Below, in pieces: positions 2,087-26,481 of a stretch of 60,056 nucleotides of DNA; position 1 is the first letter of the stretch; the number at the start of each line of letters is the position of its first letter. Below the pieces are notes generated by a model, which did not search any database, was not told the DNA's origin, and saw only the letters and a list, made by a program, of their open reading frames with translations. Source of the DNA: Allobosea sp. (GTDB lineage Bacteria; Pseudomonadota; Alphaproteobacteria; Rhizobiales; Beijerinckiaceae); NCBI RefSeq assembly GCF_017308015.1, contig NZ_JAFKFW010000031.1, positions 1 to 60,056 of the forward strand, given 5' to 3'. The translations under genes were made by a program, and so were the position numbers.

Positions 2087-2731
2087 TTACCCCCGCGCCT
2101 TCTGGAACGCTTCCTTCGCTTCACGGGCGAGCGTGGTGATGCGGTTCCAATCACCCGCGGCGATCGCCTCGGCCGGGACCAGCCAGGAACCGCCGACGCA
2201 GATGACCTGCGGCAGGGCGAGATAGTCGCCGAGATTCTTCAAGCCGACGCCACCGGTCGGGCAGAAGGTCATCTGCGGGAACGGGCCGGAGAGCGCCTTG
2301 AGGGCCGGTGGGCCGCCGGCCTGCTCGGCCGGGAAGAATTTCGCGGTGGTGCGGCCGGCCGCGACGGCGCGCATGCAGTCGGAAGCTGTCGCGACACCCG
2401 GCAACCAGGGCAGGCCCGCCTTGCGGAGGGCCTCGTCGACGCTCTCGCTGAAACCGGGACTGACAACGGCCTGCGCGCCCGCATCCTTCACCTGCGCGGC
2501 CTGCGCCGGCGTGACAACCGTGCCCGCCACGGCCAGTGCCTTCGGTACCGATTTCGCGATGGCGGCGAGCGCTTCCATCGCAGCCGGGCGGCGCAGCGTG
2601 ACCTCGACGACATCGATGCCGCCGGCGACCAGCGCATGAGCGAGATCGACGGCGCGCGAGGCGTCCTCGATCACCACGACGGGGATGACGCCGCAGCTCT
2701 TCAACCGGGCAATCGCGGCAGTCTCGTCCAT
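2087..2731 (-). CDS. eda: 2-dehydro-3-deoxy-phosphogluconate aldolase (KDPG/KHG aldolase)
   Basis: A 214-residue class I aldolase that splits 2-keto-3-deoxy-6-phosphogluconate into pyruvate and glyceraldehyde 3-phosphate, the last step of the Entner-Doudoroff pathway. The catalytic Glu is E43 in VVEVTLR and the Schiff-base Lys is K131 in KFFPAEQ. PTGGV and VGGSWL form the phosphate-binding end of the barrel. I take the ATG at 2731, because the longer frame would need a TTG five codons upstream. It is the last gene of zwf-pgl-eda, 41 bases after pgl. The dehydratase gene edd, often clustered with these, is not here. Confidence 0.95.
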   Translation of the reverse strand: MDETAAIARLKSCGVIPVVVIEDASRAVDLAHALVAGGIDVVEVTLRRPAAMEALAAIAKSVPKALAVAGTVVTPAQAAQVKDAGAQAVVSPGFSESVDEALRKAGLPWLPGVATASDCMRAVAAGRTTAKFFPAEQAGGPPALKALSGPFPQMTFCPTGGVGLKNLGDYLALPQVICVGGSWLVPAEAIAAGDWNRITTLAREAKEAFQKARG

Positions 2732-2772
2732 GGTCTCGTCTTTCAATCGATTTGAGCGCGGTAATGCCGGCT

Positions 2773-3459
2773 CTACTCCTTCGCCCAGTAGACGTCGAGC
2801 CCTCGCGCGCTGCCAAGCAGGAGATCGACCGGCAGCGGCTTCTGCATGCGCTCCGGGGCAGCCTTCAGCACCGTTTCCTTCGCGGCGCCGGAGACGAGCA
2901 GGCTCGCCCAGCCAGCCCCCAGCAGGCGAGCGGGCGAGAGCGAGAGTCGTGGCGGCAAGCCCGGCGGGCGGGCGACGACGATACCGCTGTCGGGCACCGC
3001 TTCGAAGGTCGCCTCTGCGCCCGGAAAGAGCGAAGCGATATGCCCGTCCGTGCCCATGCCGCTGACCAGCAGGTCGATCTCGGGCAACTCAGCCAGCTTC
3101 GCACAGAGCAGAGCGGCAGCGGCCTCGATATCGCTGCCATGCTCGTGGAAGGACAGGAACGAGGCGCGCCCTGCAGCCAGCGGCGCGAACTGCGCCCGGA
3201 TCATGCGCTCGTTCGAGGCCGCGTCATCAGCCACGACGAAGCGCTCGTCGGTGGGCAGCAGCGTGACCTGTTCCCAGGCCAGATCATGCCGGCCAAGCGC
3301 AGCGAGGAAACCAGCCGGAGTCGAACCGCCGGGCACTGCAAGCAGCGCCCTGCCCTGTCCTGCAAGCAGTTCCTTCAATCGCACCGCCACCGCCTCCGCC
3401 AATGCTTCGGAAGCGTCGGTGAGCGTGGCGAAGCGGTGCCAGGCGAGCGGGCCAGTCAT
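2773..3459 (-). CDS. pgl: 6-phosphogluconolactonase
   Basis: A 228-residue protein of the NagB/DevB fold that hydrolyses 6-phosphogluconolactone after the Zwf reaction. Visible motifs are VPGGSTP (42-48), TDERFV (70-75), SNERM (82-86) and MGTDGHIASLFPG around residue 143, all typical of Pgl. The ATG at 3459 shares one base with the zwf stop codon (TGATG), indicating translational coupling. An in-frame upstream extension into zwf is therefore rejected. It sits between zwf and eda in the same transcript. Confidence 0.95.
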   Translation of the reverse strand: MTGPLAWHRFATLTDASEALAEAVAVRLKELLAGQGRALLAVPGGSTPAGFLAALGRHDLAWEQVTLLPTDERFVVADDAASNERMIRAQFAPLAAGRASFLSFHEHGSDIEAAAALLCAKLAELPEIDLLVSGMGTDGHIASLFPGAEATFEAVPDSGIVVARPPGLPPRLSLSPARLLGAGWASLLVSGAAKETVLKAAPERMQKPLPVDLLLGSARGLDVYWAKE

Positions 3460-4961
3460 CAGACCAGATCCGGATCGGCCCAGGAGCGGCCGTCGCGCTC
3501 GATCAGGCCGATCGCCTGCGACGGCCCCCAGGAGCCTGCGGCGTAGCGATGCGGATGCGGGTAGTAATCCTGCCAGCCGGCGATGATCGGATCGACCCAG
3601 GTCCAAGCCTGCTCGACCTCGTCGCGATGCATGAACAGCGTCTGGTCACCGCGGATCACGTCGGTCAGCAGGCGCTCATAGGCGTCCGGCGTGCGCTCGT
3701 CGAAAGCGGTGGAATAACGCAGGTCAAGCTGGCGCGGCACGATCTTGAGCCGGCCGGAACCCGGTACCTTCATCATCAACTGGAGCTGCACGCCGTCATT
3801 CGGCTGCAGGCGGATGAAGAGGCGATTGGCGTCGAGACGGTCGCAGGAGCCGCCGCCGAAGATCGAGTGCGGCACCGGCTTGAAGGTCACGGCAATCTCG
3901 GAATAGCGCTGCGCCATGCGCTTGCCGGTGCGCAGGTAGATCGGCACGCCGGCCCAGCGCCAGTTGTCGACCTCGCAGCGGATGGCGACAAAGGTCTCGG
4001 TGTTCGAGCCGTGACCGAGCTCCTCCGAATAGCCGCGGACGCGCTGGCCGTCGATCTGGCCGGCGCCATACTGGCCACGCACGGTGAAGCGCTGGACATC
4101 CGGCCCGACGATGGGGCGCAGCGCCTTCAGTACCTTGATCTTCTCCTCGCGGACGGCGCCGGCCTCCAGCATGTTCGGCGGCTCGATGGCGAAGAGGGTC
4201 AGCAACTGCATGAGATGGTTCTGGACCATGTCGCGCATATGCCCGGACTTGTCGTAATAGCCGGCGCGCTGCTCGAGTCCGACCGTCTCGGCCACCGTGA
4301 TCTGGACATGGTCGATGTCGCGGCTCGACCAGGAGCGCTCGAACAGCGTGTTGGCGAAGCGCAGGACGAGCAGGTTCTGCACCGTCTCCTTGCCGAGATA
4401 ATGGTCGATCCGGTAGGTGCGGCTTTCCGGCAGGATGCGCGCGACGGCGTCGTTGATCGCCCGCGCCGAGGCGAGATCGCGGCCGAGCGGCTTCTCCAGG
4501 ATGACGCGCGAGGTCGGCGTCAGGATCTCGGCCTTGGCAAGATTCTCGCAGATCGGAATGAAGAGGTCCGGCGGTGTCGAGAGGTAGAAGGAGCGGACAC
4601 GGTCGCTCTCGCCCAAAGCCTGTTTCAGCGCGCCATAGGTCTCCGGCTTCACCGCATCGAGCATCACCATGGTCAGGCGGCGCAGGAAGGGCTCGACCTG
4701 ATCCTTCGGGATGCCCTCCTCGTCGAGGCGCTTGGCGATCTGCTTCGGCAGACCCTCGACATCCTCCTCCTTGCGGACGACGGCGAGGACGCGGCTCTCC
4801 CCGGGCAGAACGCCTTCGCGATTGCGCTGGGCCAGCGCCGGGAAGAGCTTGCGCAGGGCGAGATCGCCGCCCGCACCGAAGATCACGAGATCGAAGGGCG
4901 GGACCGGCGTCCGCTCGGGAATGGTCTCGGGCCGAAGCACGTTGTCCACGATGGCGTCCAT
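3459..4961 (-). CDS. zwf: glucose-6-phosphate 1-dehydrogenase
   Basis: A 500-residue enzyme oxidising glucose 6-phosphate to 6-phosphogluconolactone with NAD(P)+. The Rossmann motif is GAGGDL (29-34). The substrate-binding/catalytic segment RIDHYLGKE is at 184-192 with EKPLG at 156-160. The start at 4961 is preceded by an AGAGGAC ribosome-binding site. An ATG 16 codons upstream is possible but lacks one. First gene of the zwf-pgl-eda unit that channels glucose into the Entner-Doudoroff route. Confidence 0.96.
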   Translation of the reverse strand: MDAIVDNVLRPETIPERTPVPPFDLVIFGAGGDLALRKLFPALAQRNREGVLPGESRVLAVVRKEEDVEGLPKQIAKRLDEEGIPKDQVEPFLRRLTMVMLDAVKPETYGALKQALGESDRVRSFYLSTPPDLFIPICENLAKAEILTPTSRVILEKPLGRDLASARAINDAVARILPESRTYRIDHYLGKETVQNLLVLRFANTLFERSWSSRDIDHVQITVAETVGLEQRAGYYDKSGHMRDMVQNHLMQLLTLFAIEPPNMLEAGAVREEKIKVLKALRPIVGPDVQRFTVRGQYGAGQIDGQRVRGYSEELGHGSNTETFVAIRCEVDNWRWAGVPIYLRTGKRMAQRYSEIAVTFKPVPHSIFGGGSCDRLDANRLFIRLQPNDGVQLQLMMKVPGSGRLKIVPRQLDLRYSTAFDERTPDAYERLLTDVIRGDQTLFMHRDEVEQAWTWVDPIIAGWQDYYPHPHRYAAGSWGPSQAIGLIERDGRSWADPDLV

Positions 4962-5132
4962 AAGTCCTCTAACTCCGTCAGGCGGTGCCGGTTCTCTGGA
5001 CCAGCGCAAGGCCGTTGCCGTCCACTCAGCTTCGATCCGGACCCAAAGCAGCTAGCGCAAGGCTGCGACCAGAGTGAGACGGATTAGCCGCGCTGCAAAG
5101 AGGGCGCGGCGCAGGGCCGATCCCCTCGCCGC

Positions 5133-5885
5133 TCAGCCCGCGCGCCGGAAGCCCGCGCTCGCGGTCAGCAATTGCTGGGCATAGGCCGTCTGCGGCTGGC
5201 GCGCGGCCAGCGTCTCGACCGTCATTTCCTCGACGGCGCGGCCGAATTGCATGACCAGCAGGCGCTCGCACATATGGCCGACGACCGAGAGGTCGTGGCT
5301 GACGAGGATATAGGTCAGCTTGCGCTCCTGCCGGAGCGCCGCGAGGAGGTTCAGCACCTCGGCCTGGATCGAGACGTCGAGCGCGGATGTCGGCTCGTCG
5401 AGCAGCAGGATCGAGGGTTCGAGCACGAGTGCGCGCGCGATCGCGACGCGCTGCCGCTGACCGCCCGAGAGCTGGTGCGGATAGCGGAAGCGGAACGAGG
5501 CCGGCAAGCCGACATCGGCGAGCGCCTTGCCGATGCGGGCCTCGGCATTGTCGAGGCCATGGATGGCGAGCGGCTCGGCCAGCGTGTCGTCGACCGTCTT
5601 CTTGGGGTGCAGCGAGCCATAGGGGTCCTGGAAGACCATCTGGACGTTGCGATAGAAGGCCTTGTCGCGGACCTTGGGCTGCACGGCGCCCTCGATCGTG
5701 ACATTGCCGCTCCATTCCCGGTTGAGGCCGGAGAGCACGCGCAAGACGGTCGACTTGCCCGAGCCGGACTCCCCGACGAGGCCGTAGCTCTCGCCCTTGC
5801 GGACCTCGAAGGAGAGGTCCTTCACGACATGGGAATCGCCGAAGGAGACGTTGAGCTTGTCGACGGAGATCGCTGCGTTCGTCAT
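5133..5885 (-). CDS. ABC transporter ATP-binding protein, DppF/OppF type
   Basis: A 250-residue nucleotide-binding subunit of a dipeptide/oligopeptide importer. Walker A GESGSGKST (38-46), signature LSGGQRQR (139-146), Walker B ILLLDEP (159-165) and the H-loop VSHD are all intact. The ATG at 5885 overlaps the stop of the upstream ATPase gene (ATGA). The start three codons earlier is less likely. It is shorter than usual DppF proteins (about 320 residues), lacking most of the C-terminal oligopeptide extension. Last gene of the five-gene operon read leftward from 10469. Confidence 0.93.
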   Translation of the reverse strand: MTNAAISVDKLNVSFGDSHVVKDLSFEVRKGESYGLVGESGSGKSTVLRVLSGLNREWSGNVTIEGAVQPKVRDKAFYRNVQMVFQDPYGSLHPKKTVDDTLAEPLAIHGLDNAEARIGKALADVGLPASFRFRYPHQLSGGQRQRVAIARALVLEPSILLLDEPTSALDVSIQAEVLNLLAALRQERKLTYILVSHDLSVVGHMCERLLVMQFGRAVEEMTVETLAARQPQTAYAQQLLTASAGFRRAG

Positions 5886-6739
5886 GCCAGCCATGCCGGG
5901 TCACGGTTGAGGGTAGCGAGCTTCGCCCTGGGATGGTCGAGGTCCGGCAGGCATTCGAGCAGGCCGAGCGTATAGGGATGGCGGCGGCTACGCGCGGCCG
6001 GGTCGGCGAGCTCGGCCGCCGGCAGCGTCTCCATGACCTTGCCGCCATACATGACGATGACGCGGTCGCAGAAGGACTGCACCAGATGCAGGTCGTGGCT
6101 GATGAAGATAAGCCCCATGCCGCGTTCGGTGACGAGGTCGTCGAGGATCTTGAGGATCTGGAGCTGGACAGTGACGTCGAGCGCCGAAGTCGGCTCGTCG
6201 GCGATCAGCACCTCCGGCTCGGCGATCAGCATCATCGCGATCATGACGCGCTGGCCCATGCCGCCCGAGACCTCGTGCGGGTAGAGGTCGTAGACGCGGG
6301 CGGGCTCGCGGATCTGGACCTGTTCCAGCATGGCGAGGCTACGCTCGCGCGCCTCGCGGGGGTCGGCCTTGCGGTGGATGCGATAGGCCTCGGCGATCTG
6401 GCTGCCTACGGTCTCGACCGGATTCAGCGAGAATTTCGGGTCCTGCATGACCATGGAGATATGGCGGCCGCGCAGCTTGCGCCGGGCGCCCTTGTCCATG
6501 GCCGTCAGGTCCTGGCCACGGAAGCGCATGCGGTCGGCGCTGACGACGCCCGGATGCGGGATCAGGTCGAGGATGGCGCGGCCGGTCATCGACTTGCCCG
6601 AGCCGGATTCGCCGACAATGCCGAGCCGCTCGCGGCCGAGCGTGAAGGAGAGGCCGCGTACGGCCCGGACGATTCCGGTCGCCGTATGGAAATCGACCTT
6701 GAGATTGTCGACTTCGAGAAGAGGCTGCTCGCTCGTCAT
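5882..6739 (-). CDS. ABC transporter ATP-binding protein, DppD/OppD type
   Basis: A 285-residue ATPase partner of the downstream DppF-like protein. It has Walker A GESGSGKS (43-50), signature VSGGMGQR (157-164), Walker B VLIADEP (177-183), and the C-terminal RHPYT segment seen in oligopeptide ABC ATPases. Start chosen at the ATG at 6739, which follows GAGGTAA at a normal distance. A start five codons earlier would overlap the permease gene. The upstream permease stop lies a few bases away and the downstream gene overlaps by ATGA, so expression is coupled. Confidence 0.92.
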   Translation of the reverse strand: MTSEQPLLEVDNLKVDFHTATGIVRAVRGLSFTLGRERLGIVGESGSGKSMTGRAILDLIPHPGVVSADRMRFRGQDLTAMDKGARRKLRGRHISMVMQDPKFSLNPVETVGSQIAEAYRIHRKADPREARERSLAMLEQVQIREPARVYDLYPHEVSGGMGQRVMIAMMLIAEPEVLIADEPTSALDVTVQLQILKILDDLVTERGMGLIFISHDLHLVQSFCDRVIVMYGGKVMETLPAAELADPAARSRRHPYTLGLLECLPDLDHPRAKLATLNRDPAWLA

Positions 6740-6743
6740 CGAC

Positions 6744-7649
6744 TTACCTCGCATCCATGACGTCGCGGAGCCCGTCGCCGAGCAGGTTGAAGCCGAGCGC
6801 GACGATGCAGATGGCGACGCCGGGGAAGGTCGCGACCCACCACTGGTCGAAGATCTGCTCGCGGCCGGCCGAGATCATCGCGCCCCATTCGGGCATGGGC
6901 GGCTGGGCGCCGAGGCCGAGGAAGCCGAGGCCGGCGGCGGTCAGGATGATGCCGGCCATATCGAAGGTGGTGCGCACGATCAGCGAGGACATGCACATCG
7001 GCACGACATGTTTCCAGATGATGCGAGCCTGCGAGGCGCCCTGCAGGCGCATCGCGGCGATGTAATCCTGGTTGCGGATCACCATCGTCTCCGCGCGGGC
7101 GACGCGGGCGTAAGGAGGCCAGGTCGTGATCGCGATGGCGATGATGGCGTTGACGATGCCGGGGCCGAGTGCCGCGACGAAGGCCAGCGCCAGAACGAGG
7201 CGCGGGAAGGCCAGGAACACGTCGGTGATGCGCATCAGCAGACGGTCGACCCAGCCGCCGTAATAGCCGGAGATCGCGCCGATCAGCAGGCCGAAGGGGC
7301 CGACGGTGACGACGACAAGCAGCACGATGACCAGCGTGATCCGCGTGCCGTAGACGATGCGGCTGAAGATGTCGCGGCCGAGTGCGTCGGTGCCGAACCA
7401 GTTGGTCGCCGAAGGCGGCATGAGCCGCTTGTCGAGTGCCTGCGCGATCGGATCGAAGGGCGCGATCACGGGCGCGAAGGCAGCGATCAGCAACAGCAGG
7501 ACGATGATGACGAGGCCCGCCACCGCCATCGGATTGCGCTTGAAGGCGAGCCATTGCCGGTAGAGCTGGCCGAGACGGGCCTGGCGGCGCGACTCCGGCG
7601 AGTCGCTGATCAGCCAGGCGTGGAGGCCGGCGGAGGAGGTGTCGCTCAT
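6744..7649 (-). CDS. ABC transporter permease, DppC type
   Basis: A 301-residue inner-membrane permease of the BPD_transp_1 family. The N-terminal cytoplasmic stretch is followed by a hydrophobic helix (AGLVIIVLLLLIAAF), then the FGTDALGRDIFSR motif typical of DppC/OppC and the EAA-type coupling loop near GASQARIIWKHVVP. Strong AGGAGG ribosome-binding site before the ATG at 7649. Partners are the DppB-like gene just upstream and the two ATPases downstream. Confidence 0.94.
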   Translation of the reverse strand: MSDTSSAGLHAWLISDSPESRRQARLGQLYRQWLAFKRNPMAVAGLVIIVLLLLIAAFAPVIAPFDPIAQALDKRLMPPSATNWFGTDALGRDIFSRIVYGTRITLVIVLLVVVTVGPFGLLIGAISGYYGGWVDRLLMRITDVFLAFPRLVLALAFVAALGPGIVNAIIAIAITTWPPYARVARAETMVIRNQDYIAAMRLQGASQARIIWKHVVPMCMSSLIVRTTFDMAGIILTAAGLGFLGLGAQPPMPEWGAMISAGREQIFDQWWVATFPGVAICIVALGFNLLGDGLRDVMDAR

Positions 7650-7659
7650 ATGTGCCTCC

Positions 7660-8724
7660 TCAGCGCACGCGCGGGTCGGCCAGGCGGCCGATGATATCGG
7701 TCAGGAGATTGACCGCGATGAAGACGACGCCGACGACCAGCGTGCCACCGAGAACCGCGTTCATGTCGGCGTTGAGCAGCGCGTTGGTGAGGTAGCGGCC
7801 GAGGCCCGGCCAGGCGAAGATCGTCTCGGTCAGCACCGAGCCCTCCAGCAGATGCATGTAGGAGAGCGCGATCACGGTGAAGAGCGGGACGGCGGCATTG
7901 CGCAGGGCATGGCGCCAGATCACGGCGGTCTCGGAGACGCCCTTCACGCGCGCGGCGATGACATATTGCTGCTGCAGCTCGGTGATCATGAAGCTGCGCG
8001 TCATGCGGCTGATATAGGCGACCGAGAGCAGGCCGAGCACCAGCGCCGGCAGGATCAGGTGCGAGAAAGCGTCCCAGAACGCCTCCCATTCGCCCTCCAG
8101 CGCGGCGTCGATCATGATGATGCCGGTGCGGGTGGTGACGATGTCCTGCCAGACGACCGAGATGCGCCCCGGCCCGGAGACCCAGCCGAGCTTGGCGTAG
8201 AACAGTAGCAGCGCCATCAGGCCGATCCAGAAGACCGGGACGGAATAGCCGACGAGGCCGACGACGCGGGCGACCTGATCCTGCCAGCGGCCCTGGTTGA
8301 CGGCCGCGAGAATGCCGAGCGGCACACCGATGAGCACGCCGATCATGGTGCCGAGCGTGGCCAGCTCCAGCGTCGCCGGGAAGACGCGCTTGATATCCTC
8401 GACGACCGGGTTCGAGGTCAGCACGGAGGTACCGAGATTCCCGGTGAAGACCTTGCCGATATAGATCGCGAATTGCTGCCAGAGCGGCTTGTCGAGGCCG
8501 AGTTCGATGCGCGCCGCCTCATAGGTCTCGGGCTTGGCGTTGTCGCCGACGACCGCGAGTACCGGGTCGATCGGGATGACGCGGGCGATGAAGAAGGTGA
8601 CCAGCAGCAGACCGAACATGGTGATGACCACGGTCGTCAGTTCGCGCGAAAGCGCGCGACCCCAGCGGCCGAGCCTTCCCGGCGAAGCCGCCTTGCCTGG
8701 GGGAGCTTGCGTCACGGCAGTCAT
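7660..8724 (-). CDS. ABC transporter permease, DppB type
   Basis: A 354-residue permease. After a short Pro/Gly-rich N-terminus comes the first membrane helix (TMFGLLLVTFFIARV) and the DppB/OppB-type segment IPIDPVLAVVGD. The C-terminal half holds the coupling loop (VIWRHALRNAAVP) and ETIFAWPGLGRYL, both typical. It is about 20 residues longer at the N-terminus than common DppB proteins. Preceded by GGAGGCGG. It lies between the binding-protein gene and the DppC-like gene. Confidence 0.94.
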   Translation of the reverse strand: MTAVTQAPPGKAASPGRLGRWGRALSRELTTVVITMFGLLLVTFFIARVIPIDPVLAVVGDNAKPETYEAARIELGLDKPLWQQFAIYIGKVFTGNLGTSVLTSNPVVEDIKRVFPATLELATLGTMIGVLIGVPLGILAAVNQGRWQDQVARVVGLVGYSVPVFWIGLMALLLFYAKLGWVSGPGRISVVWQDIVTTRTGIIMIDAALEGEWEAFWDAFSHLILPALVLGLLSVAYISRMTRSFMITELQQQYVIAARVKGVSETAVIWRHALRNAAVPLFTVIALSYMHLLEGSVLTETIFAWPGLGRYLTNALLNADMNAVLGGTLVVGVVFIAVNLLTDIIGRLADPRVR

Positions 8725-8830
8725 GACCCGCCTCCGTTTCTCGTGTTTTGCGTCGGAGAGGCGGAATTGACCGCAAGCGTTTCACGCCGCGCCTTTTTCC
8801 AGGCCATGTCCGGGATGAGGCATGAAAGGA

Positions 8831-8864
8831 AGCCCGCCGCGACCTTTCGGGGTCGCGGCGGGCT
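8831..8864 (-). terminator. intra-operon hairpin between binding-protein and permease genes
   Basis: A perfect 14-bp stem (8831-8844 with 8851-8864) around a 6-base loop lies just after the binding-protein stop on the minus strand. No real T-run follows. Such hairpins after solute-binding-protein genes usually stabilise or partly terminate the transcript so that binding protein exceeds permease. That role is inference. Confidence 0.6.
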
Positions 8865-8879
8865 CCTGAGCCAGCAGGC

Positions 8880-10469
8880 TCAGTTCTTGGTGATCGTGGC
8901 GTAGCGATTGGTATCCGAGCTCGGCCCGATGACCCAGCCGTTCACATTCTTGCGCTCGGCCGAGACCTCGATCTGCTGGAACATGATGACGAAGGGCGAG
9001 ACCTTCTGATGCTCGCGCTGCAGCGTCTCGTAGGTCGCCTTGCGCTTGGCGGCATCGGATTCGAGCACGGCGCCCTGCGTGACCTTGGTCATCTCCGGAA
9101 TATTCCAGGCATTGCGCCAGGCCAGCGTCTTCGACTTCGCCTCTTCGCCATTGTCCTCGTTGATGGCGAAAGTCTCGGCATTGGTGTGCGGGTCGAGATA
9201 GTCCGGGCCCCACTGGCCGATATAGATGTCGTGGGTGCGGGCGCGGTACTTGGTCAGCGTCTGCTTGCCGTCGCCGGGAACGATCTCGAGCTTGACGTTG
9301 GCCTGGGCCCAGGTGGCCTGGATCGCCTGGGCGATATCCGTGATCGGGGAAACCGAGCGGGTGTCCATGGTCACGGTGAAGCCGTTGCTGAGACCGGCCT
9401 TGGCGAGCAGCTCCTTCGCCTTGGCGACGTTGAGCGAGTAGGGCTTGTCCGAGATCGCGCCGAGGAAGCCCTGCGGCAGGAAGGATTCGTGGCCCTTGTA
9501 GGTGCCTTCCAGAATGTTCTTCTCGATCGAAGCGTAATCGACCAGGAGCTTCAGCGCCTCGCGGACTTCCGGCTTGGCAAGGTTCGGGTTCTTCTGGTTC
9601 AGGCCGAGATAGAGGATGTAGCCCTTGTCGCCCTGAACGATCTTGATGGCATCGTTTTTCCTGACGGCCTCAAGCTGATCCTTGGAAAGGTTGCGGGCAA
9701 TGTCGACGTCGCCCTTCTCGACGAGCAGGCGCTGCGAGGCCGGCTCGGCGACATGGCGCACGACGATGCGCTTGCTCTTCGGCGCGCCCTTCCACCAGGT
9801 CTCGTTGGCATCGAGCGTATATTGCTCGTTCGGACGATAGCTGCGGACCTTGTAGGCGCCGGAGCCGGCCGAGTTCAGCTTGAGCCAGCCATTGCCCCAG
9901 TCGCCGTCCTTCTCGTTGGCCTTGACCAGCTTCGAGTCGACGATCGCGGCGACGCCGGAGGTCAGGCAGTTGTAGAAGAAGGTCGGGGCGAAGGGCTTCG
10001 ACACCGTGATCTGGACGGTGTTCTCGTCGACGGCCTTGACCTTGTCGAGCACGTTCTCGGCGACGAAGCCGAACTGGCGCAGGATGAAGCCCGGCGACTT
10101 GTTGAGCGTGACGGCGCGCTGGAAGGAATAGACCACGTCGGCCGCGGTCAGCGGATTGCCGGAGTGGAACTTGACGCCTTTGCGCAGCTTGAAGGTGTAG
10201 GTCAGGTTGTCGGGGCTGACGGTCCAGCTCTCGGCGACGTCCGGGATCAGCTCGTTGTTCTTGGTGATGTCGATATTGATGAGCTTGTCGTAGACATTCG
10301 CGCCAACCTCGACGCCCGAGAACTCGAAAGCCTCGGCCGGATCCAGCGTAATGATGTCGTCGATCTGCTTGGCCATCACGATCGTATCCTTCGGCGTCTG
10401 CGCGAAGGCCGTCGTCGACATCAGGGCGGCAAAAGCCGAAACCGCCATCAATTTCGCTACATGACGCAT
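8880..10469 (-). CDS. ABC transporter substrate-binding protein, family 5 (DppA-like)
   Basis: A 529-residue periplasmic peptide/solute-binding protein. A Sec signal peptide (KLMAVSAFAALMST, cleavage near AFA-QT at residues 23/24) precedes the mature family 5 domain, with YTFKLRKGVKFHSG and PLTAADVVYSFQRA motifs. I chose the ATG at 10469, preceded by GGGGAA. Starts at 10481 and 10559 would place extra residues before the signal peptide. First gene of the operon, and its ligand is not predictable. The region 10470-10715 separates it from the divergent transglutaminase operon and must contain both promoters. Confidence 0.94.
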   Translation of the reverse strand: MRHVAKLMAVSAFAALMSTTAFAQTPKDTIVMAKQIDDIITLDPAEAFEFSGVEVGANVYDKLINIDITKNNELIPDVAESWTVSPDNLTYTFKLRKGVKFHSGNPLTAADVVYSFQRAVTLNKSPGFILRQFGFVAENVLDKVKAVDENTVQITVSKPFAPTFFYNCLTSGVAAIVDSKLVKANEKDGDWGNGWLKLNSAGSGAYKVRSYRPNEQYTLDANETWWKGAPKSKRIVVRHVAEPASQRLLVEKGDVDIARNLSKDQLEAVRKNDAIKIVQGDKGYILYLGLNQKNPNLAKPEVREALKLLVDYASIEKNILEGTYKGHESFLPQGFLGAISDKPYSLNVAKAKELLAKAGLSNGFTVTMDTRSVSPITDIAQAIQATWAQANVKLEIVPGDGKQTLTKYRARTHDIYIGQWGPDYLDPHTNAETFAINEDNGEEAKSKTLAWRNAWNIPEMTKVTQGAVLESDAAKRKATYETLQREHQKVSPFVIMFQQIEVSAERKNVNGWVIGPSSDTNRYATITKN

Positions 10470-10715
10470 CGAGTTCCCCATCGTTTGTGTTGCGCGGGCG
10501 CTGTCAGCCCGTTGGGGCGTTATCTGCAACCAGTCCAGTGCGGCTGTCCAGTCGACCAATGGCCATGGAAAGCGCGGATCGGGTCATTTTGCACATCTCT
10601 TGAGCTGCAAGCCCGGACCATGCGCCATCCGGGCACTCGCGACGCCTTGCGCATGCCGATCGCACGTCTAACCTGACGTCGCAGGCGGCTGGCGCCTCCA
10701 ACTAGAGGGCGAAAC

Positions 10716-13700
10716 TTGGCCATTATCGCCGCGCTGAACCATGTCACGCATTACCGCTACGATCGGCCGGTCACACTCGGGCCGCAGATCGTGCGCCTGC
10801 GGCCGGCACCGCATTGCCGGGCCGCGATCCAAAGTTATTCGCTCAAGGTGACGCCGGAACAACATTTCGTGAACTGGCAGCAGGACCCGGCCGGCAACTG
10901 GCTGGCACGCTATGTCTTCCCCGAACCCGTGGCGGAATTCCGGATCGAGGTCGACGTCGTCACCGAGTTGTCGATCATCAATCCCTTCGACTTCTTTGTG
11001 GAGACGCAGGCCGAGAGCTTCCCCTTCGCCTATACGCCCGAACAGGCTGAGGAGCTCGCCCCCTATCTGGTGAGGGAGCCGGCTGGTCCACGGCTTTCGC
11101 GCTTCCTGGCGGAGCTGCCGCGCGAGCCCGTGAACACGGTCAATTTCATCGTCGATCTCAATGCCCGCCTGCAGCAGCGAATCGCCTATGGCATCCGCAT
11201 GGAGCCCGGCGTGCAGGAGCCGGAGCATACGCTCTCGATCGGCTCGGGTTCCTGCCGCGACACAAGTTGGCTGCTGGTCCAGGCCCTGCGCCATCTCGGC
11301 CTCGCGGCGCGCTTCGTCTCCGGCTACCTCATCCAGATGAAAGCGGATATCGATCCGCTTGAAGGCCCGCGCGGGACTGACAAGGACTTCACCGACCTGC
11401 ATGCCTGGGCCGAGGTCTATATCCCCGGCGCCGGCTGGGTCGGGCTCGACCCGACATCGGGGCTGCTAACCGGCGAGGGCCATCTGCCGCTGGCGGCGAC
11501 GGCACATTACCGCTCGGCCGCGCCGGTCTCGGGCGCGGCGAGCTATGCCGAGACCAGTTTCGACTTCCAGATGAGCGTGACGCGCGTGCACGAAGTGCCG
11601 CGCATCACCCTGCCCTTCTCCGATGCGTCCTGGGGTGAGCTCGATGCGTTGGGCAGCAAGGTTGAGGCCGACCTGCAGGCGCAGGATGTCCGCCTGACCA
11701 TGGGGGGCGAACCGACCTTCGTCTCGATCGACGACCAGACCGGCGAGGAATGGAACATCGCCGCCGTCGGGCCGACCAAGCGGCAGCGCGCCGACACACT
11801 GATCCGGCGACTGCGCCAGCGCTTCGCACCGGGCGGAATGCTGCATTACGGCCAGGGCAAATGGTATCCGGGCGAGAGCCTGCCGCGCTGGGCTTTCGCG
11901 CTCTACTGGCGCCGGGACGGCCAGCCGATCTGGCGCAATGCCGACCTGATCGCCCGCGAGCCGGAGGCCCAAACCGGCGGAGACCGGGAGCTGGAGATCG
12001 CAGCGACCATTCGCGATGCCGAGGCGCTAGCGCAGGGACTGTCCGAGAGGCTCGGCTTCGGCGCCGATTTCGTGGTTCCAGCCTATGAGGATACCGGCGT
12101 CTGGCTGCTGAAGGAGGCGCAGCTTCCCGAGAATGTCGACCCACTCGACCCGCGCCTCTCCGACCCCGAGGAGCGCTCGCGGATGGCGCGCGTCTTCGAG
12201 CTCGGGCTCGGCAACCCGCGCGGCTATGTCATTCCGGTGCAGCGCTGGCAGGCGGGCGCGAGCGACCGCCGCTGGCGCTCGGAAAAATGGAAGCTGCGCC
12301 GCGGCAAGCTCTTCCTCGTCCCGGGTGACTCGCCGGTCGGCTACCGCTTGCCGCTGGGTTCGCTGCCGGTCGTACCCAAAGCCGAGTATCCGCATATCCA
12401 CCCGCAGGACCCTATGGAGCCACGCCCGCCGCTGGCAGCGGGCGGGCCCGCCGGAGCAAGCTGGACCGATCATCCCGAAGCGCGACCGACGCAGCCGCCC
12501 CCCACGGAAGAGCGCCCGGGCCCGCCGCAGATGAGCATCGGCGCGCGGTCTGCCGCCGGTCCGGTCCAGGACCGGCGCGAGCAGGAGATCGGCGGCGATC
12601 ACGTCCGTACCGCACTCAGCCTCGAAATCCGCGACAACGTGCTCTGCGTCTTCCTGCCGCCGGTCGAGCGCCTGGAGGATTATCTCGACCTCGTCGCCTC
12701 GGTCGAGGCGGTGGCGGAGGAGCTCGGCCAGCCCGTGCATATCGAGGGCTATGCGCCGCCCTTCGATCCGCGGCTCGACGTCATCAAGGTCACGCCCGAC
12801 CCCGGCGTGATCGAGGTCAATATCCATCCGGCGACGGACTGGCGCGAGGCGACCGCGATCACGCAGGGCGTCTACGAGGAGGCGCGGCTGGCGCGGCTCT
12901 GCGCCGAGAAGTTCATGGTCGACGGCCGCCATACCGGCACGGGCGGCGGCAACCATGTCGTGCTCGGCGGCGTGACGCCGGCGGACTCGCCCTTCCTGCG
13001 CCGACCGGACCTTCTGAAGAGCATCATCCTCTACTGGAACCGGCACCCTGCCCTGTCCTACCTGTTCTCCGGGCTGTTCATCGGCCCGACCAGCCAGGCA
13101 CCGCGCATCGACGAGGCCCGGCAAGACCAGCTCTACGAGCTGGAGATCGCGCTGGCGCAGGTGCCGAAGCCCGGCGAGGCGTCGATATCGCCCTGGCTGG
13201 CCGACCGGCTGTTCCGCAACCTGCTGGTCGACGTCTCCGGCAACACGCATCGCACCGAAATCTGCATCGACAAGCTCTATTCGCCGGACGGGCCGACCGA
13301 CCGGCTCGGGCTCGTCGAGTTCCGAGGCTTCGAAATGCCGCCGGACGCGCGGATGTCGCTCGCCCAGCAGTTGCTGCTGCGCGCACTGATCGCCTGGTTC
13401 TGGCGCGAGCCGCTGGAGGGCAAGCTGGTGCGCTGGGGCACCGCCCTGCATGACCGCTTCATGCTGCCGGAGATGGTCTGGCAGGACTTCAAGGATGTGC
13501 TCGGCGATCTCGGGCGCGCCGGCTATCCCTTCGATCCCGTCTGGTTCGAGGCGCAGGCCGAGTTTCGCTTCCCCTTCTTCGGCAAGGTCACGCATGGCGG
13601 CGTCGAGATCGAGATCCGGCAGGCACTCGAGCCCTGGCATGTCATGGGCGAGGAAGGCGCGATCGGCGGAACGGTGCGCTATGTCGACAGCTCCATCGAG

Positions 13701-14117
13701 CGCCTGCAGGTCAAGGCGACCGGGCTGGTGCAGGGCCGCCATCTCGTCACCTGCAACGGAAGGCGCCTGCCGATGACGAAAACCGGCATCTCGGGCGAAA
13801 CCGTCGCGGCGGTGCGCTTCAAGGCGTGGAAGCCGGCCTCCGGCCTGCATCCGACCATTCCGGTACATGCGCCCTTGACCTTCGATATCGTCGATCTCTG
13901 GTCCGGCCGCTCGCTCGGGGGATGCGTCTACCATGTCACCCATCCCGGTGGACGCAATTACGAGACACCTCCGGTCAATTCCTACGAGGCCGAGGCAAGA
14001 CGGCTCGCGCGTTTCGAGGTGATCGGTCATAGTCCCGGCCCTCTGGCGATTCCGCCGGAGGAACGCAGCGCCGAATTCCCGCTCACGCTGGACCTGAGGC
14101 GCCCGACAGGGATCTAG
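10716..14117 (+). CDS. transglutaminase-like protein fused to DUF2126 (COG4196)
   Basis: A 1133-residue fusion. Residues 1-85 are a bacterial transglutaminase N-terminal domain. The papain-like core has a complete triad: C180 (GSGSCRD), H229 (DLHAW), D245 (GLDPTSG). From about residue 305 onward runs DUF2126, with MGGEPTF (329-335), HTGTGGGNH (739-747) and EFRGFEMPP (868-876). Iyer et al. 2009 predicted this family to be a circularly permuted glutamine-synthetase-like COOH-NH2 ligase, and the glycine-rich NH motif and the E-R-E motif fit that. A Pro-rich low-complexity stretch lies around 570-620. The start is TTG at 10716 after GAGGG. First gene of a three-gene unit; the next gene starts 8 bases on. 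No catalytic activity is proven for this family. Confidence 0.9.
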
Positions 14118-14125
14118 AGCGAAGA

Positions 14126-16648
14126 ATGCCGGTGCAGGGCCGCATCCGATCAGGACGCAGCAGGGCCGAGCGGCGTGCATCGTTGCTTGCCGGCTATCGC
14201 CCCCTGCCCGGCGTCTTCGACGAGTTCATCGACGAGCACGGCCAAGTGCGACCGCATTGGGAGCCGTTCCTCTCTGCCTGGTGCGCACTGTCGCCTTCGG
14301 AATTGACCCAGCGCTTCGGGCTCGCGGACCGGCATGTCCGCGATACCGGCGTCTCCTATCGCGTCCATGGCGATATCGATCAACGCGACCCTGGCGTTGG
14401 CGAACGGGCCTGGCCCTTGTCGCATGTGCCCCTCGTCATCCCCGAGGCGGAATGGCAGATCATCGCGGCCGGCGTGACGCAGCGCGCCGAACTGCTTTCG
14501 ACTGTGCTGGACGACATCTACGGGCCGGGCGAATTGATCGCGGATGGGCACCTGCCCGCCGCCGCCGTCACCGGCAGCCCCGATTATCTGCGCCCCCTGC
14601 ACGGCATTGCCGGCGGCGGCGCATTGCAACTCTATGCCGCCGATCTCGGCCGTGGTCCCGACGGGCGCTGGTGGGTACTGCAGGACCGGACACAGGCGCC
14701 GTCGGGAACCGGCTATGCGCTGGAAAACCGGCTGGCGCTGGCGCGCGCCTTCCCCGACATGTTCCGCAGCATGAATATCGAGCGACTGGCGGCCTTCTTC
14801 CAGAGCTTCCGTGCGGGGCTCATCACGCGCTCCAAGCGTGTCGAGCCGCGCATCGCCCTGCTGACACCTGGCCCCCTTAACGAAAGCTATTTCGAGCAGG
14901 CCTATCTCGCGCGCTATCTCGGCTTTCTGCTCGTCGAGGGCGGCGACCTCCTGATGCGCGAAGGCCGGGTACATGTGCGCACCATCGCCGGCCTGAAACG
15001 TGCCGACGTGATCTGGCGGCGCATCGACGGCGATTTCGCCGATCCGCTTGAACTCAATTCCGGCTCGGCGCTCGGCGTCGCCGGCCTGGTCGAGGCCGCC
15101 CGGCAAGGTCAGGTCCATGTGGCCAACGGGCTCGGCTCCGGCGTCGTCGAGGCGCGCGCGCTGATGGGCTTCCTGCCGGCGCTCGCCCGACAACTGCTAG
15201 ACCAGGATCTGATCCTGCCGAATATCGCCACGTGGTGGTGCGGCCAGCCGCAGGAACGCCGGACCGTGCTCGACCGTCTCGGCGAGATGAGCATCGCGCC
15301 GGCCTTTCGTAGCGCCGGAAACGGGCTCGACACGACGCAGGTCGTCGCCGGGGAATTGCCCGAAGCGGAGCGCGCGGCGCTGCGGGAGCGCATCGAGGCG
15401 CGCGGCATGGACTATGTCGGACAGGAGGTCGTGCGTCTTTCGACCATGCCGGTCTTCCAGAACGGCCGGCTCGAACCGCATCCGATGACGTTGCGCGTCT
15501 TCGCCGCCGCGACGCCTGACGGCTGGAAGGTGATGCCCGGTGGCTTCTGCCGCATCTCCGACGAGCCCGATGCGCGCGCGGTCAGCATGCGCAATGGCGT
15601 GCGCTCCAGCGATGTCTGGGTCACTGCGGAAGAACCGGTCGCGCAGGTCAGCCTGCTCCCGGCACCGGACCGGGTCAGCATCCGCCGTGTCACCGGCACA
15701 TTGCCGAGCCGCGCAGCCGACAACCTGTTCTGGCTCGGGCGCTATCTGGAGCGCGGCGAGGCGATCCTGCGGCTCGTGCGCGCCCTGCTCGGCCGGCTGA
15801 TCGACCCGGACCCGGCACCGGGGCGCAACGACACCGTACGCCAGCTCGCCGGCATGCTCGCCGCCTGGGGCGCGGCGCCGGGCGGGCAGGAGAAGCGGAT
15901 GCCGGCCGCGCAGGCCTATGCGGCGCTCTACAGCCTCGACGATTACGGTTCGGCCGCAGCCTCGTTGCGCGAAGCGCGGCGCACCGCCTCGGTCATCCGG
16001 GAGCGCCTCTCCATCGATGCCTGGCGCCTGTTCGGCGACCTTCAGAACCAGCTCGCACCCGAGGAGGGCCGCAAGCCGAGCGAGGGCGAGGCCTATGAGA
16101 TCGCCGACCGGGCGCTGAAATCGCTCGCGGCCTTCTCCGGCCTCGGCCAGGAGAACATGGTGCGCGGCAATGGCTGGCGCTTCCTCGATATCGGCCGGCG
16201 GCTGGAGCGCGGCATCGCGACCTGTCGGTTCGCCCGGCAATTCGCCGACAGCAACGCCTCCAGCGACAGCCTCGATGCACTGCTCGACCTGACGGATTCG
16301 CAGATCACCTACCGCTCGCGCTACCTGCTCGGCGCCAGCCTGCAGCCGGTCCTCGATCTCGTGATGCTCGATCCCTACAACCCGCGTTCCGTCGCCTTTC
16401 AGGTCGAGCGGCTCGACACCGAGATCGCCGATCTGCCGACGCTCACGGATGACGGCATGCTGGAGGCACCGCGCCGCCTGGTGGTGCGACTGGCGGCCGA
16501 TTGCCGGACCATGGAAGCAAGCCGGCTCGACCGGACCAGCATCCTCCTGTTCGAGCAGTTGCTGATGGGGCTCTCGGGCGCGATCGCCGATCGCTATTTT
16601 CTCCAGAACAGCGGCCCCGAAGGCTCGCGGATGACGAGCATCGCGTGA
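14126..16648 (+). CDS. circularly permuted ATP-grasp protein fused to alpha-E domain
   Basis: An 840-residue fusion. Residues about 1-480 match the circularly permuted type 2 ATP-grasp family (DUF404/DUF407, COG2308), with YGPGELIADG, LTPGPLNESYFEQAYLAR and LEGGDL-type segments. From about 525 onward begins the all-helical alpha-E domain (DUF403, COG2307), opening with LPSRAADNLFWLGRYLERGE. The two halves are often separate genes, so this is a fused version. The ATP-grasp should form an amide bond using ATP; substrates are unknown. The stop overlaps the GTG start of the next transglutaminase gene (GTGA), showing translational coupling. Confidence 0.9.
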   Translation: MPVQGRIRSGRSRAERRASLLAGYRPLPGVFDEFIDEHGQVRPHWEPFLSAWCALSPSELTQRFGLADRHVRDTGVSYRVHGDIDQRDPGVGERAWPLSHVPLVIPEAEWQIIAAGVTQRAELLSTVLDDIYGPGELIADGHLPAAAVTGSPDYLRPLHGIAGGGALQLYAADLGRGPDGRWWVLQDRTQAPSGTGYALENRLALARAFPDMFRSMNIERLAAFFQSFRAGLITRSKRVEPRIALLTPGPLNESYFEQAYLARYLGFLLVEGGDLLMREGRVHVRTIAGLKRADVIWRRIDGDFADPLELNSGSALGVAGLVEAARQGQVHVANGLGSGVVEARALMGFLPALARQLLDQDLILPNIATWWCGQPQERRTVLDRLGEMSIAPAFRSAGNGLDTTQVVAGELPEAERAALRERIEARGMDYVGQEVVRLSTMPVFQNGRLEPHPMTLRVFAAATPDGWKVMPGGFCRISDEPDARAVSMRNGVRSSDVWVTAEEPVAQVSLLPAPDRVSIRRVTGTLPSRAADNLFWLGRYLERGEAILRLVRALLGRLIDPDPAPGRNDTVRQLAGMLAAWGAAPGGQEKRMPAAQAYAALYSLDDYGSAAASLREARRTASVIRERLSIDAWRLFGDLQNQLAPEEGRKPSEGEAYEIADRALKSLAAFSGLGQENMVRGNGWRFLDIGRRLERGIATCRFARQFADSNASSDSLDALLDLTDSQITYRSRYLLGASLQPVLDLVMLDPYNPRSVAFQVERLDTEIADLPTLTDDGMLEAPRRLVVRLAADCRTMEASRLDRTSILLFEQLLMGLSGAIADRYFLQNSGPEGSRMTSIA

Positions 16649-17523
16649 TCTACGAGCTGCGCCACGTCACCACCTACGGCTATAGCCGGCCGGTGCCCTT
16701 TTCCCGCTGTATCCTGCGATTGCTGCCGCGCGACGGGGCGGGCCAGCGCGTTCTGAAGAGCGAATTGCTGGTCACCCCCCGCCCGGCCGAGCGCAATGAC
16801 GGGCTCTGCTTCTTCGGCAACCACATGACCACAATCACCATTGCGAAGCCGCATCGCGAGCTGAAGCTCGAAATGCGGGCGCGGATCGAGGTCGACCGGC
16901 CGCAGCCGCCCCATGGGGGGCTGACGCGAAACTGGGAGGATGTCGCGGCACTGGCGCTCGATTCCCGGAGCCTGGCGCAGGATTCGCCGGCCCATCACCT
17001 CTATCCGAGCCGGCTCGTGCCGCATGTTCCGGTCGTCATCGACTACGCCCGGTCGAGCTTCGCGGCCGGTCTCCCGGTGCTGGAGGCGGCCTGCGACCTG
17101 ATGGCCCGGATCAGGCGCGACTTCACCTACGATCCCGAGGCGACGGAGGTGACGACGCCGCTGGCGGAAGCCTTCGACCAGCGCCATGGCGTCTGTCAGG
17201 ATTTCGCGCATATCATGATCGCAGGCTTGCGCGGGCTCGGCCTGCCCGCCGCCTATGTCTCCGGCTATATCCGCACGATTCCGCCGCCCGGCCAGAAGCG
17301 GCTCGAAGGCGCCGATGCCAGCCATGCCTGGGCAATGCTGTGGTGTGGACCGGGGATCGGCTGGGTCGGGCTCGACCCGACCAACGACCTGATCGTTGCG
17401 GACGACCATATCGTTACCGCCTTCGGCCGCGACTACGCCGATGTCGCCCCGCTCGACGGCGTGGTGATCGGGCCGGGCACGCAGAAGGTCGGCGTCGCCG
17501 TGGACGTGGTTCCGGTCGGCTAG
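16645..17523 (+). CDS. transglutaminase family protein
   Basis: A 292-residue protein with the N-terminal beta domain (ELRHVTTYGYSRPV) followed by the papain-like transglutaminase core. The triad is complete: C184 (HGVCQDFAH), H227 (ASHAWA), D244 (GLDPTND). The start is the GTG at 16645 overlapping the preceding stop. A start at 16501 would run deep into the ATP-grasp/alpha-E gene. Bacterial members are mostly thought to be peptidases or amidases and not crosslinkers. Its coupling with the two ligase genes suggests it cleaves or transfers the peptide they make, which is inference. Confidence 0.92.
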   Translation: MIYELRHVTTYGYSRPVPFSRCILRLLPRDGAGQRVLKSELLVTPRPAERNDGLCFFGNHMTTITIAKPHRELKLEMRARIEVDRPQPPHGGLTRNWEDVAALALDSRSLAQDSPAHHLYPSRLVPHVPVVIDYARSSFAAGLPVLEAACDLMARIRRDFTYDPEATEVTTPLAEAFDQRHGVCQDFAHIMIAGLRGLGLPAAYVSGYIRTIPPPGQKRLEGADASHAWAMLWCGPGIGWVGLDPTNDLIVADDHIVTAFGRDYADVAPLDGVVIGPGTQKVGVAVDVVPVG

Positions 17524-17529
17524 ATTTCC

Positions 17530-17862
17530 TCAGGCCACGAGCACCACGCAAGCCTTCGCACAGGCGCGACAGGCGGCGACGCAGGACTCCATGTCTCCGA
17601 TCCGCGCGCAATCGGTCGCGCAGGCCTCGCAGACCTCGGCGCATTCCCTGGCCATGTGACGGCCGTGGACCGAATCCATCAAAAGCAGATGCGCCGTCGT
17701 CCGGCAGATTTCGGCGCAAGCCGCCATCAGGCGCAGATGGTCCGGCTCGGCATGAGCGCCGCCCACCTTCAAACAATGGGTCATCGCCATGCCGTGACAG
17801 TGCTTGTAGCAGTCGAGCGCGAGATCGGCTGCGTTGCGCGTCTTCGGATCGAGATGGTGCAT
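17530..17862 (-). CDS. four-helix-bundle copper-binding protein (DUF326, Csp-like)
   Basis: A 110-residue helical protein with 13 cysteines (18, 22, 30, 49, 53, 74, 78, 81, 85, 94, 98, 101, 105), mostly CxxxC or CxxC pairs, plus several Met and His. This is the pattern of the copper storage proteins Csp1/Csp3, which line a four-helix bundle with thiolates and bind many Cu(I) ions. No signal peptide is visible, so a cytosolic Csp3-like store is more likely. Start at the ATG at 17862; the longer frame has non-family residues. It converges on the transglutaminase operon with only 6 bases between stops. Confidence 0.88.
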   Translation of the reverse strand: MHHLDPKTRNAADLALDCYKHCHGMAMTHCLKVGGAHAEPDHLRLMAACAEICRTTAHLLLMDSVHGRHMARECAEVCEACATDCARIGDMESCVAACRACAKACVVLVA

Positions 17863-17926
17863 GTCGCGGCTCCGTTCGGGAGGGATATCCCGATCAACCG
17901 CCGCGACAGGCGCCCTGTTCCGCGGA

Positions 17927-19390
17927 TCAGGCCAGCGTGTAGGCCGTCTTGACCGTGGAGTAGAACTCCTTGGCATAGGCGCCCTGCTCGCGCGGGCCGT
18001 AGCTGGAGCCCTTCCGGCCGCCGAACGGCACGTGATAGTCGACGCCCGCCGTCGGCAAGTTGACCATCACCATGCCCGCCTCGCTGTTGCGCTTGAAATG
18101 CGTCGCATGCTTCAGCGAGGTCGTGCAGATGCCCGAGGACAAACCGAACTCAGTGTCGTTGGCGATGGCGAGCGCCTCGTCGTAGTCCTTGACGCGAACG
18201 ATGTTGGCGACCGGGCCGAAGACCTCCTCGCGCGAGATGCGCATGGCGTTGGTCGTCTCGGTGAACAGCGCCGGAGCCAGATAGAAGCCAGGGGTGTCGC
18301 GCTTCAGGAGCTCGCCACCGAAGACCAGCTTGCCGCCCTCGTCCTTGGCGATCTGGATATATTTCAGGTTCTGGTCGAGCTGGCTCTGGTCGACGACCGG
18401 GCCGATATGGGTGCCGGCCTTCAGCGCATCGTCGACGACGACGGTCTTCAGGCGCTCGATGCAGGCTTCGACGAATCTGTCATGGATGCCGGTTTGGACG
18501 ATCAGGCGCGAAGAGGCCGTGCAGCGCTGGCCGGTCGAGAAGAAGGCGCCATTGACGGCAACTTCGACGGCGACCTTCAGATCGGCGTCGTCGAGCACGA
18601 CGAGCGGATTCTTGCCGCCCATCTCGAGCTGAACCTTCTTCATCGGGTTTCCGGCGATGCAGGCGGCGGCGACCTTGCGGCCGGTGCCGACCGAGCCGGT
18701 GAAGGAGATGGCGGCGACGTCCTTGTGCTCCAGCAGCGCCTGGCCGACGACCGAGCCGCGGCCCATGACGAGGTTGAGCGCGCCCTTCGGCAGGCCCGCG
18801 CGCTGCAGAATGTCGACCAGAGCCCAGGCCGAGCCCGGTACGAGATCGGCGGGCTTCAGGACGACGCAATTCCCCCAGGCGAGCGCAGGCGCGATCTTCC
18901 AGGCGGGGATCGCGATCGGAAAATTCCAGGGCGTGATCATGCCGACGATGCCGACCGCCTCGCGGGTGATCTCGACGCCGACGCCGGGACGGACCGACGG
19001 CACCATCTCGCCACCAAGGCGCAGACACTCACCGGCGAAGAAGGCGAAGACCTGGCCGGCGCGGGTCGCTTCGCCGATGCCCTCGGCCAGCGTCTTGCCC
19101 TCCTCGCGCGAGAGCAGGCGGCCGAGCTCGTCCTTGCGGGCGAGGATCTCGTCGGAGGCTTTCTTCAGGATGTCGTAGCGCTCCTGCGGGGTGGAGCGGC
19201 TCCAGGCCGGGAAAGCGGCCTTGGCGGCGGCGACCGCGTTGTTCAGGTCCTCGACCGAGCCTTGCGTGTACTCCCCGACCACGTCGTTCGTATTCGAGGG
19301 ATTGATGTTGCGCGAGGCGTTGGCCCCGCCGGCCCATTCGCCAGCGATCAGATTCTTGAAGGGCGCGTTCATCTTGTTCTCCGACGACAT
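17927..19390 (-). CDS. aldehyde dehydrogenase, alpha-ketoglutarate semialdehyde dehydrogenase type
   Basis: A 487-residue NAD(P)+-dependent aldehyde dehydrogenase. Catalytic E256 is in QLEMGGKNP and the nucleophile C290 in STGQRCTAS, with the cofactor-binding PWNFP (154-158) and FTGSVGTG (230-237). The C-terminal PFGGRKGSSYGPREQG segment resembles 2,5-dioxopentanoate dehydrogenases, which complete oxidative pentose, hydroxyproline or glucarate breakdown to 2-oxoglutarate. No pathway partners are adjacent, so the substrate is uncertain. An alternative start (MNAPF) lies six codons in. Confidence 0.88.
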   Translation of the reverse strand: MSSENKMNAPFKNLIAGEWAGGANASRNINPSNTNDVVGEYTQGSVEDLNNAVAAAKAAFPAWSRSTPQERYDILKKASDEILARKDELGRLLSREEGKTLAEGIGEATRAGQVFAFFAGECLRLGGEMVPSVRPGVGVEITREAVGIVGMITPWNFPIAIPAWKIAPALAWGNCVVLKPADLVPGSAWALVDILQRAGLPKGALNLVMGRGSVVGQALLEHKDVAAISFTGSVGTGRKVAAACIAGNPMKKVQLEMGGKNPLVVLDDADLKVAVEVAVNGAFFSTGQRCTASSRLIVQTGIHDRFVEACIERLKTVVVDDALKAGTHIGPVVDQSQLDQNLKYIQIAKDEGGKLVFGGELLKRDTPGFYLAPALFTETTNAMRISREEVFGPVANIVRVKDYDEALAIANDTEFGLSSGICTTSLKHATHFKRNSEAGMVMVNLPTAGVDYHVPFGGRKGSSYGPREQGAYAKEFYSTVKTAYTLA

Positions 19391-26368: not shown

Positions 26369-26398
26369 CGCTTCGCTCCGTCACTCGCTAGCGCTCAA

Positions 26399-26410
26399 TT
26401 GCATATGCAA
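26399..26410. promoter_or_regulatory. hut operator box 1 (TTGCATATGCAA)
   Basis: A perfect 12-bp palindrome, 31 bases upstream of the hutF start codon and next to box 2 (centres 26 bp apart). Identical to two other copies in the window. Inferred HutC binding site because it lies between the divergent hut units and HutC is encoded in one of them. The core differs from the operator reported for Pseudomonas HutC. Confidence 0.75.
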
Positions 26411-26418
26411 ATAGCACT

Positions 26419-26447: not shown

Positions 26448-26481
26448 GGCTTCACATCAAAGAGTAGCGGGAGGACGCACG

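Follow-up and report, generated by a model that had tools for sequence, protein, structure and literature searches.

A DUF2126 operon of Allobosea sp. with a probable pseudo-ATP-grasp: a candidate branch of a modular amide-bond system spread over two loci

A network of Anbu, ATP-grasp and transglutaminase proteins was recognized in 2009 through the context of their genes; it has no known product, and Anbu itself is debated as a relative of the proteasome. Iyer et al. (2009) reportedly predicted from gene context an amidoligase network for peptide modification. The Anbu operon groups an ATP-grasp, an alpha-E protein, a transglutaminase and Anbu (COG3484), and excerpts of a study on Yersinia report that the intact-type ATP-grasp of this operon releases phosphate from ATP, that pull-downs gave no stable complex of the operon proteins and that Anbu showed no peptidase activity (PMC6376114). 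Here, we describe a three-gene operon (10716-17523, forward strand) in a stretch of 60,056 nucleotides from Allobosea sp., called the window below. It shares three families with the Anbu operon, a canonical copy of which lies elsewhere in the same genome on contig C51, but it has no Anbu, carries DUF2126, and its ATP-grasp is fused to alpha-E and has lost key residues. With the systems of Iyer et al. it has in common the domain set of ATP-grasp, alpha-E, transglutaminase and glutamine synthetase (GS)-like ligase, whereas here the modules are split over two loci and include a probable pseudo-ATP-grasp. The kinship with this network, already proposed in an earlier sequence-only reading of the window, is borne out. 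The first gene can also be set beside E. coli GspS and trypanothione synthetase-amidase: GspS combines an ATP-grasp synthetase with a cysteine amidase, and gene 1 differs in that its ligase, of predicted GS type, is paired with a transglutaminase-type domain. Our search of open-licence full texts found no literature on the DUF2126 operon or on its ATP-grasp, and earlier notice elsewhere is possible.

Computation established the domain content of the operon, the residue loss, the second operon and the co-occurrence of the modules across genomes, and on balance we favour a modular amide-bond system of which the operon is the branch with DUF2126 and in which a competent ATP-grasp and Anbu would act in trans. 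The genome measures 4.9 Mb in 56 contigs, and the operon is on contig C45 (Table 1). Gene calls and domain matches confirm the make-up first described, that of one tight operon with a TTG start, 8 bases from gene 1 to gene 2 and a GTGA shared by genes 2 and 3; the TTG start is credible because the M1 of relatives falls at this position in at least 90% of 57 alignment rows. DUF2126 is present as a single copy in the genome. At least 596 stretches in the genome collection contain relatives of it, and 80 loci were kept for comparison; a gene 2 relative is found in 74 of the 81 compared loci (the window included; several loci end at contig edges), so the co-occurrence of genes 1 and 2 in an operon is not due to chance. 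Among these 80 loci, the four best named relatives of gene 1 come from Bosea and from an unclassified Hyphomicrobiales metagenome-assembled genome, with 80-84% identity, which makes Bosea or a close relative the probable source of the window. Flanking genes are not conserved among the compared loci.

Table 1. Features of the window and of the second operon on contig C51 (the latter given as positions in stretch L028)
Feature	Position	Strand	Details and basis
Divergent peptide-type ATP-binding cassette (ABC) importer, five genes	5133..10559	-	SBP_bac_5 protein, two permeases, two ATPases
Gene 1	10716-14117	+	TTG start, 1133 aa; Bact_transglu_N + Transglut_core + DUF2126 (PF09899, 1324.5 bits)
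TG1, N-terminal transglutaminase-type domain of gene 1, triad C180/H229/D245	10716..11519	+	Pfam, alignment
DUF2126, predicted GS-like amidoligase (~residues 276-1128)	11541..14099	+	Pfam, predicted structure
Variable Pro-rich linker inside DUF2126 (~residues 578-626)	12447..12593	+	Predicted local distance difference test (pLDDT) <50
Gene 2	14126-16648	+	ATG start, 840 aa; CP_ATPgrasp_2 (469.7 bits) + Alpha-E (231.4 bits)
Circularly permuted ATP-grasp fold, probably catalytically impaired	14429..15556	+	Pfam, fold, residue loss
Q186-D187-R188 where unfused relatives invariably have the E-x-N pair	14681..14689	+	Alignment
A391 replacing the Gly-loop lysine (K364 in the C51 protein), loop degenerate	15296..15298	+	Alignment
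Alpha-E helical domain, W/R/E-R motif residues kept	15701..16600	+	Pfam, motif columns
Gene 3	16645-17523	+	GTG start at 16645, 292 aa; Bact_transglu_N + Transglut_core
TG2, second transglutaminase-type protein (gene 3), triad intact	16645..17523	+	Pfam, motif columns
C51 ATP-grasp, intact type	L028 5050-6465		Translation, residues
C51 alpha-E	L028 6539-7480		Translation
C51 transglutaminase, Ala for Cys	L028 7536-8360		Translation
C51 Anbu protein	L028, frame ends at 9177		PDB matches

The N-terminal half of gene 2 retains the circularly permuted ATP-grasp fold and has lost an E-x-N pair and a lysine of the Gly-rich loop, to which we ascribe, by homology with 3n6x and GspS, a role in Mg/ATP binding. 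The unfused copies retain all three residues in 52 of 52 cases, and none of 85 gene 2-type relatives keeps even two of them; the pair corresponds by count to E330/N332 of GspS, which we take to bind Mg. The gene 2 clade is nearly always fused to alpha-E and its split from the unfused clade is supported 100/100 in a tree, the fused and unfused sets having been sorted by the closer reference before the split was tested and a long-branch warning being attached to L206 and L126. The gene 2 ATP-grasp is probably a non-catalytic pseudo-ATP-grasp. Two ligases had first been counted in the window, and by domain names both are there; a second intact ligase is not, since Q186, R188 and A391 stand in the places of the Mg-ligand and Gly-loop lysine equivalents. 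This loss, under a preserved fold, is part of what the earlier reading had itself named as grounds against it. An arginine stands at position 188 in 83 of the 85 relatives. Decay into a pseudogene was rejected, given the full open frame and at least ten charged residues (R120, D130, R176, R202, E257, R298, R299, D306, E342 and R457) identical in 85 of 85 relatives.

A second circularly permuted ATP-grasp copy was found on contig C51, with the third transglutaminase of the genome, recovered by a Bact_transglu_N search, alongside; taken genome-wide, the network therefore has an intact-type ATP-grasp with alpha-E, on C51. The Anbu protein of this operon matches all five listed PDB Anbu chains, with E values from 3.1e-57 to 4.8e-80 (the latter for 5loy), and keeps Thr1, Asp17 and Lys32, residues named in the portion of PMC6376114 consulted. 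The Pfam proteasome model, searched against the genome, did not reach this protein, which explains how it could be overlooked when only the family is searched for. The absence of Anbu noted earlier thus holds for the operon, none being encoded in 10716-17523 or in the adjoining genes, but not for the genome, where it stands beside ATP-grasp, alpha-E and transglutaminase on C51. A genome of the same genus (G018) carries an Anbu-like gene (L030:6268-7002) apart from its ATP-grasp genes and, judged by eye, adjoining an AraC-type regulator; weak proteasome-family matches of the same kind occur in G004, G005 and G007.

Both transglutaminase triads of the operon are complete, as first read: that of TG1 is identical in 57 of 57 rows, and the TG2 of the window has the Cys, His and Asp found in 89, 89 and 87, respectively, of 89 TG2-type proteins. 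In the C51 transglutaminase, Ala replaces the catalytic Cys, and genome-wide the complete triads are supplied by TG1 and TG2. Reciprocal decay between the two loci was rejected as a general rule: among 43 Anbu-operon transglutaminases, 5 have lost the Cys, at 3 of 21 where the genome holds DUF2126 and 2 of 22 where it does not.

The other proposed ligase, DUF2126, is predicted to adopt a GS-type fold. Its model aligns with glutamine synthetases over 216-296 residues in collinear order, which agrees with a GS-like amidoligase in the operon but does not bear out the circular permutation formerly assigned to it, no permutation being visible in the model. It differs from them in sharing only 6-14% sequence identity, in its large insertions and in the fused transglutaminase domain. 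A weak profile alignment with GlnA runs through the PG-x-x-E and G-x-G-x-H stretches, and E677, E700, N702, H747, R846, E868 and R870 of gene 1 are identical in 57 of 57 rows; GS-type chemistry may be expected from this model. Near the position of the linker, the DUF2126 profile match is fragmented in several genomes.

Together, these features suggest a mechanism in which gene 1 would be a bifunctional amide enzyme, with a GS-fold amidoligase forming an amide via an acyl phosphate and a papain-like, transglutaminase-type cysteine enzyme transferring or hydrolysing amides, so that a ligase and a cysteine amidase or acyltransferase would together make and resolve an amide. Gene 2, as a conserved and probably non-catalytic ATP-grasp paralogue with alpha-E, may serve as a partner subunit which holds or positions a substrate or partner, and gene 3 would be a second transglutaminase-type enzyme. 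The residue-complete ATP-grasp, alpha-E and Anbu would come from the C51 operon, and the whole would therefore be one modular system over two loci rather than a self-contained operon with two ligases.

The distribution of the modules was followed in 289 alphaproteobacterial genomes, with DUF2126 in 44, Anbu in 93 and the circularly permuted ATP-grasp in 124, and in a second sample of 299 Pseudomonadota that overlaps the first in part, with 92, 115 and 171 genomes, respectively, above the cut-off (three weak ATP-grasp matches below it, in G344, G443 and G592, were dropped). The ATP-grasp is present in 44 of 44 DUF2126 genomes and 93 of 93 Anbu genomes of the first sample, and in 92 of 92 and 113 of 115 of the second. 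Given ATP-grasp, DUF2126 and Anbu occur independently: the 124 genomes divide into 33 with both, 11 with DUF2126 only, 60 with Anbu only and 20 with neither (odds ratio 1.0, p 1), those of the phylum sample into 58, 34, 55 and 24 (odds ratio 0.74, p 0.42; G408 and G550, with Anbu and no ATP-grasp match, left out) and those outside Alphaproteobacteria into 25, 25, 22 and 12 (p 0.26), counts which ignore kinship and in which very distant Anbu may have escaped the one Anbu query used. The rule for a genome is thus ATP-grasp first, with Anbu and DUF2126 as independent add-ons. Scores read by eye (best match no higher than 1.2e-157, against 2.5e-154 for the best fused copy listed) place an unfused-type ATP-grasp in 42 of 44 and 92 of 92 DUF2126 genomes; the exceptions, G234 and G261, have DUF2126 with a fused copy.

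These data also bear on the strongest alternative, to which we give a minority chance: that in function the operon stands apart from the Anbu operon, with DUF2126 as its sole ligase, the fused ATP-grasp in a new role as binding or sensor domain, and a co-occurrence inherited from shared history. The independence of DUF2126 and Anbu speaks for it, as do three genomes (L261-L263) that have the fused protein and TG2 but no DUF2126, and both weigh against action in trans. Set against separation are the rarity of DUF2126 without an unfused-type ATP-grasp and the arrangement of some loci. In L206, the intact ATP-grasp and alpha-E, TG2 with the pseudo-ATP-grasp-alpha-E protein, Anbu and the TG-DUF2126 fusion stand side by side, and on a Caballeronia plasmid both ATP-grasp types flank the fusion gene. 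Among 16 DUF2126 stretches picked as distant or as lacking Anbu, all with the fusion, nine show the window's set (two of them, L130 and L133, with the unfused pair also nearby) and four the fusion alone; L117 combines the window's set with an unfused ATP-grasp-alpha-E-Anbu set, in L116 it adjoins Anbu, and in L129, a short contig, it adjoins the unfused ATP-grasp-alpha-E pair. Of the 58 genomes of the phylum sample which have both DUF2126 and Anbu, 14 hold the two within 20 kb of each other and 11 within 1 kb. In a Caballeronia locus, a putative zinc-binding metallopeptidase gene (L164:8814-9875) stands between the unfused pair and TG-DUF2126.

We find it improbable that the operon is a self-contained unit for peptide synthesis or tagging, with two working ligases, trimming transglutaminases and no need of Anbu; its domain content, its tight organization and the DUF2126 genomes without detected Anbu would suit this, but ATP-grasp residues are lost across the fused clade, the unfused type nearly always accompanies DUF2126, and Anbu is encoded in the same genome. 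Least likely is an active gene 2 ATP-grasp whose metal or phosphoryl chemistry has changed, with R188 in the role of the Mg-binding Asn, since the conservation of R188 and of the ten charged residues does indicate selection rather than decay but the Gly-rich loop and its lysine, kept in active relatives such as 3n6x and the C51 copy, are lost too.

Several studies, consulted as excerpts, link relatives of the proposed two-locus system to nitrogen. In Burkholderia cenocepacia, a cluster encoding ATP-grasp (DUF404/407), alpha-E (DUF403), a transglutaminase and a further, large transglutaminase protein drops 6- to 9.4-fold in an ntrC mutant (PMC5491218), and the large protein is likely TG-DUF2126. 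Nitrogen limitation raised the Anbu-operon genes PP_2686-2688 of Pseudomonas putida 11- to 37-fold, with PP_2685 (Anbu) little changed in two of three strains (PMC7801951); on nitrate versus ammonium, PP_2685 and PP_2688 rose about 2^4 (PMC8050072), and marine metagenomes tie these domains to urea metabolism (PMC3597751). Sites of the -24/-12 (sigma-54) type, scored against the 95th and 99th percentiles of a control, exceeded them before 18 and 13 of 49 unfused ATP-grasps, before 12 and 10 of 47 TG-DUF2126 genes of other lineages (7 of the 10 being the same site in one genus) and before 11 and 2 of 78 in the lineage of the window. Before the window operon, the scan showed no such site. Against the link, Anbu-operon expression was unchanged under the various conditions covered by excerpts of PMC5666114. 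Nitrogen control is thus well supported for the network elsewhere and not for the window operon, whose system may nevertheless act under nitrogen shortage.

A broader proposal, which we put forward tentatively and as more doubtful than action in trans here, is that in many Pseudomonadota the pseudo-ATP-grasp-alpha-E protein is a dedicated non-catalytic partner coupling the GS-transglutaminase fusion to an active ATP-grasp/Anbu machine whose genes lie at another locus, the whole forming one proteasome-related amide-conjugation system, linked to nitrogen limitation and made of separately movable modules. In practice, the residue-complete ATP-grasp, the pseudo-ATP-grasp and the DUF2126-transglutaminase enzyme can now be told apart, which guides the choice of the protein to assay for ATP use and of the one likely to be inactive, and warns that one operon co-expressed alone may fail; L206 offers a compact locus carrying all parts, and in some relatives nitrogen limitation is likely to act as inducer.

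As for the neighbours, the divergent peptide importer of the sequence-only reading is indeed present beside the operon, but it is not a conserved companion, a relative of its binding protein occurring in only 7 of 81 loci; one of its ATPases matches ABC_tran, and the best NCBIfam matches of the other are dipeptide/oligopeptide families, below their cut-offs. A histidine-use cluster at 25001-29243 (an amidohydrolase with a HutF N-terminal domain, a second amidohydrolase and an aromatic amino acid lyase) places nitrogen/amino-acid genes about 7 kb downstream of the operon. Consecutive genes at 2087-5009 encode glucose-6-phosphate dehydrogenase, a 6-phosphogluconolactonase-type protein and 2-keto-3-deoxy-6-phosphogluconate (KDPG) aldolase. 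Finally, a small open reading frame at 17530-17976 has a weak likeness to Csp1-type copper storage proteins (NCBIfam 28.4 bits, cut-off 100) and is adjoined by an aldehyde dehydrogenase gene (17927-19390).
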